Source of the DNA: an uncultured bacterium
Lineage (GTDB): Bacteria > Planctomycetota > UBA1135 > GCA-002686595
Reading direction: 5' to 3'
Assembly: GCA_902826945.1 (NCBI GenBank)
Contig: CADEGS010000280.1
Location: forward strand, 1 to 5,203
DNA: 5,203 nt
The number at the start of each line of letters is the position of its first letter. Position 1 is the stretch's first letter. Position numbers and translations under genes: made by a program. The notes beneath the pieces were generated by a model. That model searched no databases. It was not told where the DNA came from and worked only from the letters and a program-made list of their open reading frames with translations. This document shows, piece after piece, positions 2,731-5,203 of this stretch.

Positions 2731-3807
2731 ATGGGCGCGCCGGTGCGGGTCACGATCCTCGGCAACAGCTTCGCCGCGCGCGTGCAGCTCCCGGCCCTGC
2801 GCTGGGCCGCGGGGAACCGCGTCGTGGCGCTCGCGGGTCACGACGCCGAGAAGGCGCAAGCGACCGCCCGCGAGTGGCAGATCCCCTTCGCGACCGGCGA
2901 CTGGCGCGCGGCGCTCGAGCAGGATACGGACCTCGTCCTGGTGGCGACGCCCGTCGACCTGCACCGGCCGATGGCGCTCGCGGCGCTCGAGCGCGGCGCG
3001 GCGGTGCTGTGCGAGAAGCCCTTCGCGCTCGACGCCGGCGAGGCGCGCACGCTCGTGGCGCGCGCCGCCGGCCGCCCGGCCTGGATCGACCACGAGCTGC
3101 GCTGGAGCCCGCACCTGCGCGAGCTGCGCCGGCGCTTGCAGTCCGGCGCCGCCGGCGAGCCGCGGCACGTCGCGATCGAGATGTTCCTGCCGCCCGCCAA
3201 CCACGCCGAGCGCCCCTGGAGCTGGTGGTTCGACGCGCGCCGCGGCGGCGGCGTGCTGGGCGCGCTCGGCTCCCATCTCATCGATCTCCTGCGCTGGATC
3301 CTGGGCGAGATCAGCGAGGTGCGCGCCAGCCTGGCGCACTTCCAGGACGAGCGCCGCGACGGCGCGGGCGCGCTGCGCGAGGTGACGGCCGACGACTACG
3401 CCGCGCTCGCGCTGCGCTTCCGCAACGGGTGCCTCGGCACGCTCGAGACCTCGATCGCGATCCCGAGCGAGCGCTTCTTCCGCCTGCAGGTGACGGGCTC
3501 GGAGGAAACGCTGCGCGTCGTGAAGGGCGACGAGCTGTGGGCCGGCCCGAGCACCGGCACGCTGGCGCCGGTGGCCGTCCAGCCGCCGCTCCCGACCTGC
3601 GCGGAGCTCGGCCTGCCCGAGTACGGCATCTTCGGCCGCTGCCTGCCGCTCTTCCTGCGCGATCTCGTCGCCGCCGTCGGCGAGCAGCGCGGCGCCTGCG
3701 ACGGCGCCGCCACGTTCCAGGACGGCCTCGCAACACAGCAGGTGCTCGACGCCGCGCGCGCCTCCGCGGCCTCGCGCGGCGGCTGGGTGGCCTGCAACGC
3801 GCGATGA
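2731..3807 (+). CDS. Gfo/Idh/MocA-family NAD(P)-dependent oxidoreductase
   Basis: This 358-residue protein has the length and two-domain order of the family. An N-terminal Rossmann fold (about 1-120) begins VRVTILGNSFAARVQLPAL (residues 6-24). It carries the VATPVDLHRPMALAALERG helix region (71-89) and the family signature CEKPFAL (94-100), whose Lys96 is normally the catalytic/cofactor residue. The C-terminal alpha/beta domain contains GGGVLGALGSHLID (172-185), where His182 and Asp185 correspond to the conserved active-site pair. Two deviations are visible: the second Gly of the dinucleotide-binding loop is Ser (GNSF), and the Asp usually found at 178 is Ala. The ATG at 2731 is chosen because the Rossmann strand starts six residues later; a TTG at 2695 would add 12 residues lying in the intergenic hairpin. 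These enzymes oxidise or reduce sugars, inositols or related compounds; the substrate is unknown. The stop overlaps the next ATG by four bases (ATGA, 3804-3807), suggesting coupled translation. Confidence 0.9.
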   Translation: MGAPVRVTILGNSFAARVQLPALRWAAGNRVVALAGHDAEKAQATAREWQIPFATGDWRAALEQDTDLVLVATPVDLHRPMALAALERGAAVLCEKPFALDAGEARTLVARAAGRPAWIDHELRWSPHLRELRRRLQSGAAGEPRHVAIEMFLPPANHAERPWSWWFDARRGGGVLGALGSHLIDLLRWILGEISEVRASLAHFQDERRDGAGALREVTADDYAALALRFRNGCLGTLETSIAIPSERFFRLQVTGSEETLRVVKGDELWAGPSTGTLAPVAVQPPLPTCAELGLPEYGIFGRCLPLFLRDLVAAVGEQRGACDGAATFQDGLATQQVLDAARASAASRGGWVACNAR

Positions 3808-4061
3808 GCCCGCCGCTCCCCGAGCGCTTCGCCCCCGGCCCCCCCGAGCGCTTCCCCAGTCCAGTCGGGGGCTTCGCGCCCAGTCCAGTCGGGGGCTTCC
3901 CGCCCAGTCCAATCGGGGGCTTCCCGCCCAGTCCAATCGGCGGCTTCCCGCCCAGTCCAATCGGCGGCTTCCCGCCCAGTCCAATCGGGGGCCTTGCCCC
4001 CAGGTCAACCGGGGGCCTCGCCCCAGCTCAACCGGGGGCTTCGCTCCCAGTCCTCCTGTGA
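3804..4061 (+). CDS. 85-aa repeat ORF, probably the frameshifted original 5' end of gluQ
   Basis: From the ATG at 3804 the translation starts MSPPLPERFAPGPPERF and continues with SPVGG, FAPSPVGG and four FPPSPIGG units. It then degrades (LAPRSTGG, LAPAQPGA) and stops at TGA 4059-4061. The ATG overlaps the oxidoreductase stop (ATGA) and the TGA overlaps the GTG of gluQ (GTGA), so ribosomes could pass along all three frames. Two readings are possible. First, it is a short Pro/Gly-rich peptide, probably disordered, acting mainly as a coupling leader. Second, which I favour, it is the N-terminus of GluQ-RS separated from the enzyme by a single missing base in the 23-bp unit at 4014-4036. PERFAPGP at its start resembles the usual RFAPSPTG beginning of GluQ-RS proteins. 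No other family is recognisable. Confidence 0.45.
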   Translation: MSPPLPERFAPGPPERFPSPVGGFAPSPVGGFPPSPIGGFPPSPIGGFPPSPIGGFPPSPIGGLAPRSTGGLAPAQPGASLPVLL

Positions 4062-4084
4062 GCCTCGCCCCCACTCCAATCGGC
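3822..4084 (+). repeat. 24-bp tandem repeat array derived from the gluQ signature motif
   Basis: Eleven units lie head to tail, starting at 3822, 3846, 3870, 3894, 3918, 3942, 3966, 3990, 4014, 4037 and 4061. The cognate sequence inside gluQ (4085-4108) would be a twelfth. All are 24 bp except the one at 4014-4036, which is 23 bp. The four central units (3894-3989) share GGCTTCCCGCCCAGTCCAAT and differ only in their last base (G or C), while flanking units diverge progressively; this pattern indicates recent central expansion. Each unit encodes an 8-residue motif of the form (F/L)(A/P)PSP(I/V/T)G(G/R), the same as LAPSPTGR of GluQ-RS. At two junctions (3939-3952 and 3963-3976) GGCGG-CTTC-CCGCC can form a small hairpin. 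There are no unique spacers, so it is not a CRISPR array. Confidence 0.93.
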
Positions 4085-5026
4085 CGCCTCGCGCCCAGCC
4101 CCACCGGACGCCTGCACGTCGGCCACGCGCGCAGCTTCCTCGCCGCCTGGTGGAGCGTGCGCGCGCGCGGCGGCCGCATCGTGCTGCGCCTCGAGGACCT
4201 CGACCTGCAGCGCGCGCGCGCCGAGCACACGGCCGGAGTGCTCGCGGACCTGCGCTGGCTCGGCCTCGACTGGGACGGCGAGCCCTTCGTGCAGAGCGCG
4301 CACACGGATTCGCTCGAGAAGGCACTCCTGCACCTCGTCCTGCGCTCGCTCGCCTATCCCTGCGTGTGCTCGCGCAAGGACCAGCGCAGCGCGCTCGGCG
4401 CCCCGCACGCCGCGGAAGAGACGGGCGCGAGCGCCGCCGAGCTCCGCTACCCCGGCACGTGCCGCGACCACTACCTCTCCCTGGGCCAGGCCGAGACGCT
4501 GCGCCACCAGCAGGCCGGCCTGCGCCTGCGCGTGCCGCCCGGCGTCGTGCGCATCGCGGACGCCCTCGCCGGAGCGTACGCCGAGGACGTCTCCGCCGCC
4601 GTCGGCGACTTCCTGCTCGCGCGCCGCGACGGCGCCGTCGCCTACCAGCTCGCGGTCGTCGTGCACGACGCCGAGCAAGGCGTGAGCGAGGTCGTGCGCG
4701 GCGACGACCTGCTCGCGAGCACCCCGCGCCAGTGGCTGCTGCAAGAAGCGCTCGGCCTCTCGCACCCCCGCTGGCTGCACCTGCCGCTGGTCCTGGACGA
4801 GACCGGCGAGCGCCTCGCCAAGCGCAACGGCGGCGCGACGCTCGCCACCCTGCGCGAGCGCGGCGCCGACCCCCGCCGCCTGGTCGCCTGGGCCGCCCGC
4901 AGCCTGGGCATGGACGTGCCCGCCGCCATCACGCCCGCCGAGGCCAGCCCCGCCTTCGACCCCGCGCGCATCCCACGCACGCCGGTGCGCTTCACAAGCG
5001 CGGAGGAGCGCGGGCTGGTTGGTTGA
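4058..5026 (+). CDS. gluQ: Glutamyl-Q tRNA(Asp) synthetase
   Basis: This GluRS paralogue, without the anticodon-binding domain, activates glutamate and attaches it to queuosine at position 34 of tRNA-Asp in the cytoplasm. The 322 residues match the short family length. Visible are the class I signature APSPTGRLHVGH (12-23), LRLEDLD (43-49), LGLDWDG (68-74), the zinc site C102-V-C104 with Y131-PGT-C135, YQLAVVVHDAEQGVSEVVRG (196-215), the STPRQ segment (221-225) and LAKRNGG (253-259) replacing KMSKS. The CxC...Yx3C site and short length separate it from full GluRS. GTG at 4058 is the only usual start between the frame break and the signature; it lies within a diverged repeat, has no Shine-Dalgarno sequence and overlaps the upstream stop (GTGA), implying translational coupling. 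Residues 2-9 (SLAPTPIG) are themselves a repeat copy. If the 23-bp unit is a sequencing error, the gene starts at ATG 3804 and encodes 407 residues. Confidence 0.93.
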   Translation: MSLAPTPIGRLAPSPTGRLHVGHARSFLAAWWSVRARGGRIVLRLEDLDLQRARAEHTAGVLADLRWLGLDWDGEPFVQSAHTDSLEKALLHLVLRSLAYPCVCSRKDQRSALGAPHAAEETGASAAELRYPGTCRDHYLSLGQAETLRHQQAGLRLRVPPGVVRIADALAGAYAEDVSAAVGDFLLARRDGAVAYQLAVVVHDAEQGVSEVVRGDDLLASTPRQWLLQEALGLSHPRWLHLPLVLDETGERLAKRNGGATLATLRERGADPRRLVAWAARSLGMDVPAAITPAEASPAFDPARIPRTPVRFTSAEERGLVG

Positions 5027-5053
5027 GGCTCCCGGGCCCGCGCGCGCCGAGCC
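5027..5053 (+). terminator. Short hairpin after gluQ stop
   Basis: GGCTC (5027-5031) can pair with GAGCC (5049-5053) immediately after the gluQ stop. The stem is only 5 bp and no T-tract follows, so it is a poor terminator candidate. It is the only structure I see between the gene and the tRNA promoter at a usual terminator position. Confidence 0.2.
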
Positions 5054-5098
5054 CTGCCCGCGACCGCGCAGCGCAGCGCTCCGCCCCCCTGGCCTCCC

Positions 5099-5112
5099 CC
5101 GGGTCCACCCGG
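5099..5112. other. Palindrome abutting the tRNA promoter
   Basis: CCGGGTCCACCCGG has 6-bp arms (CCGGGT/ACCCGG) around a 2-bp centre and ends one base before the -35 hexamer. As RNA it would be a 5-bp stem with a TCCA loop. It could be a protein-binding site upstream of the tRNA promoter, the remnant of a terminator for gluQ, or chance. Confidence 0.3.
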
Positions 5113-5113
5113 C

Positions 5114-5141
5114 TTGACTACCCTCCCCCCCGCGCTACCCT
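5114..5141 (+). promoter_or_regulatory. Sigma-70-type promoter of the tRNA-Asn gene
   Basis: TTGACT (5114-5119) matches five of six bases of the -35 consensus. TACCCT (5136-5141) is a fair -10, with a 16-bp spacer between them. Transcription would begin near 5148, a few bases before the mature tRNA end at 5154. The GC-rich stretch after the -10 (TCGCGG) resembles the discriminators of stringently controlled stable-RNA promoters. Confidence 0.65.
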
Positions 5142-5153
5142 TCGCGGAAGCGT

Positions 5154-5203
5154 TCCCCGATAGCTCAGTCGGTAGAGCAACCGGCTGTTAACCGGTTTGT
5201 CGT
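5154..5203 (+). tRNA. tRNA-Asn (anticodon GTT), 3' end outside window
   Basis: The first 50 nt of a tRNA are visible. The 5' acceptor strand is TCCCCGA (5154-5160), followed by TA at positions 8-9. The D-stem is GCTC (5163-5166) with GAGC (5175-5178) around an AGTCGGTA loop. The anticodon stem ACCGG (5180-5184) pairs perfectly with CCGGT (5192-5196) around the 7-nt loop CTGTTAA. The anticodon GTT at 5187-5189 reads Asn codons. The window ends at the start of the T-stem, so the T-arm and acceptor 3' strand (expected TCGGGGA) cannot be checked. G34 makes this a normal queuosine-target tRNA, although GluQ-RS acts on tRNA-Asp. Confidence 0.96.

Follow-up and report, generated by a model that had tools for sequence, protein, structure and literature searches.

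A tandem array of 24-bp units was found directly 5' of gluQ, which is predicted to encode the tRNA glutamyl-Q(34) synthetase (GluQ-RS), in a stretch of DNA of 5,203 nucleotides (hereafter the window) from one contig, the source of all evidence on the array. Sequence comparisons support a derivation of the array units from the ATP-site block of gluQ itself. The explanation favored here, at a probability of roughly 0.58, is that a private and neutral minisatellite arose within the 5' part of gluQ and that the gene survives by a restart within the array, at the GTG at 4058. The locus gives the impression of a housekeeping gene in which a repeat arose, and not of a novel type of enzyme.

TRF located the array at 3855-4053 (8.3 copies, score 263) and, in a second row, at 3854-4107 (10.6 copies, score 200); a period of 72 bp was also reported within it. 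Delimited by hand, the array consisted of eleven extra units (U1 to U11) at 3828-4087, of which nine are 24 bp, one is 21 bp, and one is 23 bp long. With the two short units allowed for, the 24-bp units follow a single register from the ATG at 3804 to the real motif, where the end of U11 (4087) adjoins the LAPSPTGR block of gluQ (4088-4111), the start of the genuine class I signature that continues into LHVGH (4088-4126). The original prediction for this locus had described an array at 3822-4108 with a period of exactly eight codons. The span was close to that of the units and the real copy, while the period had two exceptions, at 3852-3872 (21 bp) and 4017-4039 (23 bp).

All units lie on the + strand, where the array reading frame runs for 85 codons from the ATG at 3804 to a TGA at 4059-4061. 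The first octad of this frame, U0 (MSPPLPER, 3804-3827), has only 11/24 identities to the real block, is no clear unit copy, and is probably a remnant of the native N-terminus. It is followed by U1 (FAPGPPER, 24 bp, 3828-3851) and by U2 (FPSPVGG, 21 bp, 3852-3872), which has an in-frame loss of three bases. The core of the array, U3 to U7 (3873-3992), includes one FAPSPVGG and four FPPSPIGG octads and is nearly identical throughout (21-24/24 identity between units). Downstream of the core are U8 (LAPRSTGG, 3993-4016), the best matches of which were mostly gluQ motifs, U9 (23 bp, 4017-4039), where the loss of a single base shifts the frame, and U10 (4040-4063), which reads FAPSPPVS in the GluQ-RS frame and contains the GTG at 4058 at its 3' end. 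The last unit, U11 (LAPTPIGR, 4064-4087), is the sole extra octad within the predicted enzyme. At the 5' border of the array (3818-3857 of the window), there are two copies of CCCCGAGCGCTTC, 24 bp apart.

The identity to the real block was 18/24 for U1, 14/21 for U2, 17/24 for each of U3 to U8, 18/23 for U9, 15/24 for U10, and 18/24 for U11. The edge units were far less alike than U3 to U7, and a near-identical middle with diverged edges is the usual pattern of an array homogenized in its middle. The likeness was said to rise toward the enzyme, notably in the R and L positions, but no smooth gradient was observed from U1 to U10 and U11. The first-place L occurred in U8, U9, and U11 and was absent from U10, and the final R occurred in U1 and U11 only. 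In contrast, the peptides predicted ahead of the genuine LAPSPTGR-LHVGH (FAPSPVGG, FPPSPIGG, and LAPTPIGR) were all present. As a whole, the original observation held for the array and its peptides, and not for the exact period, the frame, and the gradient. An array of this kind is not expected by chance. In fetched loci totaling 377,442 bases, part of which overlap, tandem rows with scores of at least 150 were found in two loci, and one locus (L010, with a 63-bp unit) combined a period of 20 or more with four or more copies.

The enzyme adjoining the array is, on its model scores, a GluQ-RS (YadB family), and hence a predicted tRNA-modification enzyme that would glutamylate queuosine-34 of tRNA-Asp. 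Its gene (4058-5026, + strand, GTG start) encodes 322 amino acids with the HIGH-type motif HVGH at 4115-4126 and with PF00749 as the sole Pfam domain, that is, a catalytic domain without an anticodon-binding domain. It scored 283.3 bits against TIGR03838 (cut-off 276.7), by which its membership was assigned. Among the other GluQRS models, it was above the cut-off for NF004315 and NF004314 and below it for NF004313 and NF004312, while the gltX_bact model remained below its own cut-off (194.6 of 289.95). The GluQ-RS structures 1nzj and 4a91 matched at an E-value of 7.8e-39, behind six better-scoring glutamyl-tRNA synthetases.

Upstream, the window includes the end part of an asparagine-synthase-like gene (3-818), an ORF of 493 amino acids (1194-2675) with no Pfam or NCBIfam match at E-values up to 0.001, which appeared hydrophobic by eye, and a Gfo/Idh/MocA-type oxidoreductase gene (2731-3807, + strand; PF01408, PF22725, and PF02894). 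The stop codon of the latter (TGA, 3805-3807) overlaps the ATG at 3804, forming an ATGA at 3804-3807. Downstream of gluQ, a tRNA represented by its first 50 bases (5154-5203, Rfam RF00005) was the sole match in an Rfam scan of the window, with nothing found on the array, and its anticodon was read by eye as GTT. Besides the 5154-5203 region of the window, a tRNA-Asn(GTT) was present at variable distance in 13 of 21 scanned gluQ loci of relatives (L001, L020, L024, L026-L031, L035-L037, and L048). The tRNA-Asn is itself a queuosine tRNA, and its pairing with gluQ may be meaningful.

A register test was applied to the origin of the units. If they descend from the gluQ block, units taken in back-steps of 24 should match the block of relatives best, while rotated units should not. 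For all seven full-length unit types, with the short U2 and U9 left out, U1 included, the unrotated unit matched the gluQ block in 86 relatives better than any other of the 24 rotations did. The mean scores were 13.3-15.1 of 24 for unrotated units and at most 12.1 for any of the 23 rotated versions. Of 5000 codon shuffles, 0 to 5 reached the unrotated score. Six sequences were also compared with the neighboring octads, where five units scored 13.3-15.1 against the block, 7.0-10.5 against the octad before it, and 7.2-7.9 against the octad after it. The sixth, U0, scored 10.0 versus 9.5, without a clear preference for the gluQ block.

A broader comparison covered 753,164 positions of fetched loci, which were mostly fetched for gluQ and in part overlapping, such that gluQ was over-represented while still making up a very small share. 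The best matches fell on gluQ motifs in seven of nine cases for U8 (all nine at 18 or more of 24), two of five for the core unit, and two of three for U3. Within the window, 232,704 comparisons over all rotations found no place that equaled the real block for the core unit, U8, or U11, and 20, 8, and 62 such places for U1, U3, and U10, respectively. In 2 to 14 of the 86 relatives, the block was no less similar to a unit than the real block of the window is. Since most units contain AGT and CCA where the real block has AGC and CCC, the source copy must have differed from the present one. The earlier proposal that the array expanded from inside the gene is therefore supported by the register of seven unit types, by the enrichment on gluQ motifs, and by the junction of the Gfo/Idh stop and the gluQ start, which is pushed apart in the window. 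The origin from gluQ was the part of that interpretation which held, while its other part, an enzyme with about eleven copies preceding the genuine block, did not.

The array appeared to be private to this locus among the relatives examined. The 86 relatives came from 91 loci, of which L023 duplicates L001 and four (L086, L092, L097, and L117) lacked a match to the motif pattern, and they represent 90 genomes out of the 154 in the class (30 plus 60 loci, L001 and L023 being the same genome). The best of them were about 60% identical in GluQ-RS, and the closest relatives, P0002 and P0003, were compared as proteins only. No TRF row of period 20-28 with a score of at least 30 was found within 450 bp 5' of the block in the 86 relatives, where the flank was shorter in L029 (214 bp), L046 (122 bp), and L082 (436 bp), and no tandem row with a score of 50 or more was found in the four loci without a motif match. 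In L094, a 15-bp repeat of 2.7 copies (score 61) was found in the stretch 5' of the block.

Similarly, among the best 120 of 7998 GluQ-RS proteins, no such octads were found in the 119 other than the window's own. The lead before LAPSPTG in these 120 proteins was 3-52 residues, the window's own included, and the leads of P0057, P0074, and P0087 each loosely matched the octad pattern once. A search with the array region returned 46 proteins at E-values up to 10, of which 45, including the window's own, contained PF00749. Of the five new proteins that were inspected, four were GluQ-RS with one block each, and P0135 was unrelated, with a stretch resembling PPSPTG. When used as a protein query, the array ORF matched none of 1142 candidates at E-values up to 10.

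Other irregularities were observed before the motif. P0012 and P0051 have low-complexity and partly repetitive leads before LAPSPTG (SPT-rich and TATGTTA-like, respectively) that are not made of this octad and may represent further expansions at this position. In L126, a small in-frame doubling (VVGRPVVGR) just before LAPSPTG is perhaps another trace of slippage at the site before the motif.

A gene related to the Gfo/Idh gene was found 5' of gluQ in 16 fetched relatives, with stops located by frame extension and with five of the 16 matches being weak (34-44% identity, and over 73 residues only in L037). In 14 of the 16, a possible in-frame gluQ start overlaps the Gfo/Idh gene, by exactly 4 nt in six relatives, and the exceptions were L001 and L093, where gluQ starts 60 bp and 4 bp after it. 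The distance from the Gfo/Idh stop to the R of GRLAPSPTG was 5-87 nt in the relatives versus 277 nt in the window. Because the junction is shared by 14 of 16 relatives and the ATGA is kept in the window, growth of the array probably took place within the 5' part of gluQ, and the ATG at 3804 was probably the original gluQ start, with the array grown between this start and the motif.

The vicinity of the block also offers a plausible natural seed for slippage. A near-repeat of period 24 was observed in part of the relatives, in which PxGRL precedes the block and PTGRL closes it. The 15-nt identity at a lag of 24 near the block averaged 7.4 in the 86 relatives versus 4.9 at other places of the same stretches, and it reached at least 11 in nine of the 86 versus 0.23% of background places. 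The window had a value of 11, while L020 (the best-scoring genome match) and L033 had 13. However, the R after SPTG, which completes the PTGR seed, was confined to 40 of the best 120 of 7998 GluQ-RS proteins.

An unlikely alternative to growth inside gluQ is that the GTG at 4058 is the native start and that the array grew in a spacer behind the Gfo/Idh stop, again with the gluQ block as the source of the copies. A start at this GTG leaves one extra octad, LAPTPIGR, at the position of the normal N-terminus of relatives, and the resulting MSLAPTPIGR aligns well with MSAPPVVGR, the ordinary N-terminus of an 84% relative. The GluQ-RS of S. flexneri has a similar short lead, its N-terminus having been measured as TDTQYIGRFAP after the Met (PMC3542578), and the 60-bp distance in L001 provides an example of a spacer. 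However, a spacer-free start is possible in 14 of the 16 relatives with the same gene order, the ATGA overlap remains in the window, and U0 and U1 (MSPPLPER-FAPGPPER) resemble a native start and block by eye, as U1 also does in the register test.

The reading frame bears on whether GluQ-RS carries the translated array as an extension of its N-terminus, as originally predicted, with the 23-bp unit being either a sequencing or assembly error or bypassed by frameshifting. This appears rather unlikely. The 21-bp U2 keeps the frame, which is open from the ATG at 3804, a site where relatives can start, through U8, and the loss of one C from a run of C in U9 would be a plausible error; if the 23-bp unit is an error, the translated reading revives. 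Nevertheless, the given sequence stops at 4059-4061, and all three frames are open across the array core, so that openness is uninformative. Such an extension was also missing from the best 120 of 7998 GluQ-RS proteins, and the codons and GC3 of the array differ from those of the window's genes. For example, AGT was found in 0 of 60 serine codons and CCA in 1 of 86 proline codons of the genes, versus 7 and 8 of the 11 units, respectively, and the GC3 of 3852-4016 was 0.745 versus 0.957-0.993. The differences between units, few in number, fell 14, 5, and 12 times on the first, second, and third codon positions. As positions 1 and 3 vary about equally, purifying selection is not favored.

As assembled, the octads before U9 are outside the GluQ-RS frame, and only U11 is inside the predicted enzyme if the 23-bp unit is real, in place of the roughly eleven decayed copies that had been proposed. 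In the GluQ-RS frame, the GTG at 4058 is the only ATG, GTG, or TTG between a stop at 3521 and the motif, besides the rare start candidates ATC at 3662 and 4079. No Shine-Dalgarno-like sequence was found before this GTG (2/6, versus 3-4/6 for three other starts). Judging from the frame, GluQ-RS is most likely made from the GTG at 4058. The stop of the array ORF overlaps this start (GTGA, 4058-4061), which is a weak coincidence of about one in three, because a start codon followed by A always yields such a stop.

A third alternative overlaps with the favored explanation and differs from it by claiming a function, namely that the array is a selected leader element, either a leader ORF or a structured RNA, that tunes the expression of gluQ. 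It would be in line with the ATGA and GTGA overlaps flanking the array ORF, with a GTG that lacks a Shine-Dalgarno sequence, and with the gluQ-rs of S. flexneri, the expression of which depends on the promoter of the upstream gene and on a terminator (PMC3542578). It appears quite improbable, considering that the RNA folding of the array (z of -1.53, with 9 of 200 shuffles as good) was not clearly better than that of shuffles, that zero promoters and zero terminators were predicted in 3600-5203, that a stop/start overlap would be only about a one-in-three event, and that leader-ORF conservation was missing, with no such array in the 86 relatives and no match to the array-ORF query. Most likely the array has no selected function, and its effect on the enzyme is probably small.

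A more speculative proposal, which we likewise consider quite doubtful, is that a signature-born minisatellite split gluQ into a coupled pair. Ribosomes would pass from the Gfo/Idh gene through the ATGA to the 85-codon array ORF and from there, via the GTGA, to GluQ-RS. The level of this queuosine-glutamylating enzyme would be set by how many 24-bp units there are and by their phase. If true, many GluQ-RS genes would contain, in the PxGRL-24 nt-PTGRL arrangement, an inherent hotspot of slippage.

Searches were also made for the array outside of gluQ. The exact unit pattern was found in none of the viral contigs and in 0 of 69 loci. With two mismatches, it gave 3, 2, and 1 matches in three genomes versus 12, 0, and 4 for the reversed pattern, being above this control in G002 only. 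A DNA search of the 154 genomes of the class, at an E-value of up to 10 that gives chance matches in 153 of them, revealed no array among the matches listed, with four candidates scored per genome. None of these matches exceeded 59 of 307 bases, and four of the six best were gluQ starts, which is explained in part by the 23 bases of the real block held in the query. The finding that would have refuted the original prediction, an array of the same unit at unrelated loci of relatives, was not made among the listed matches of the 154 genomes, in the three genomes searched by pattern, or in the 69 loci.

Two short and weak matches were found in a phage search with the array, and 12 records were found in a plasmid search. 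The best of the latter, out of 7.3 billion bases, was a hypothetical-protein gene of the Cellulomonas plasmid NZ_CP081863.1 (130 bases, 70.8%, E-value of 7e-8), which includes a 24-bp array of its own (7.2 copies at about 992-1164). The Cellulomonas unit matches U5/U6 at 18/24 in its best rotation, versus 17/24 for the real gluQ block, but the edge units U1, U8, U10, and U11 have 13-15 identities to it versus 15-18 to the real gluQ block. Since these units are closer to gluQ, the match was taken as convergence on the GC-rich core, and the plasmid array was set aside as a relative because it fits the core units only. A foreign or dispersed repeat that landed at this site, its likeness to the gluQ block being coincidence or convergence, is very improbable: the AGT and CCA codons and lower GC3 do look alien to the window's genes and the plasmid array is similar at the core, but the register of seven unit types, the edge units, a Cellulomonas unit only 15/24 identical to the gluQ block, and the outcome of the viral, locus, and genome searches all argue against it.

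The favored explanation, a neutral minisatellite born inside gluQ, may be outlined as follows. The native gluQ start would have been located on the Gfo/Idh stop codon, at the ATGA of 3804-3807. From the near-repeat of period 24 (PxGRL and PTGRL), slippage or unequal exchange may have duplicated the 24-bp LAPSPTGR block, after which the array would have grown in its middle, as the near-identical units suggest, while its edges aged. The three-base loss in U2 would have kept the frame, and the one-base loss in U9 would have broken it. GluQ-RS would then be made by a restart at the GTG at 4058, overlapping the TGA of the array ORF, possibly through reinitiation by ribosomes coming off that ORF.

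Minisatellites, or VNTRs, are tandem units of more than 10 nt in several copies, for which slippage or recombination are given as causes in a review (PMC3899988). The window shares with coding minisatellites a unit of this size in tandem (24 bp, with a TRF core of 8.3 copies and 11 units by hand). The latter are mostly in cell-surface genes according to the same review, while that of the window has a frame break and apparently arose from the catalytic signature of an enzyme with a housekeeping role. The enzyme itself belongs with known GluQ-RS (TIGR03838; PDB 1nzj and 4a91) by model score and motif, and its array had no counterpart in the 86 relatives or in the other 119 of the best 120 of 7998 proteins. 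The gluQ gene of Shigella flexneri, in the dksA-gluQ-rs operon, depends on the gene upstream of it, and the measured start of its GluQ-RS precedes GRFAP by a few residues and lacks an obvious Shine-Dalgarno sequence, a short lead as in the window. In contrast, its upstream gene is dksA with a terminator and no repeat array is mentioned in the available excerpt (PMC3542578), while gluQ in the window is preceded by the Gfo/Idh gene and the array. No open-access paper that treats both GluQ-RS and a tandem repeat was found.

In this locus, a tandem repeat has apparently been caught with its conserved source copy still in place, such that the seed, the register, and the ageing of the units can be read. 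It suggests that a housekeeping gene may survive the growth of a repeat through its start by moving the start codon inward.
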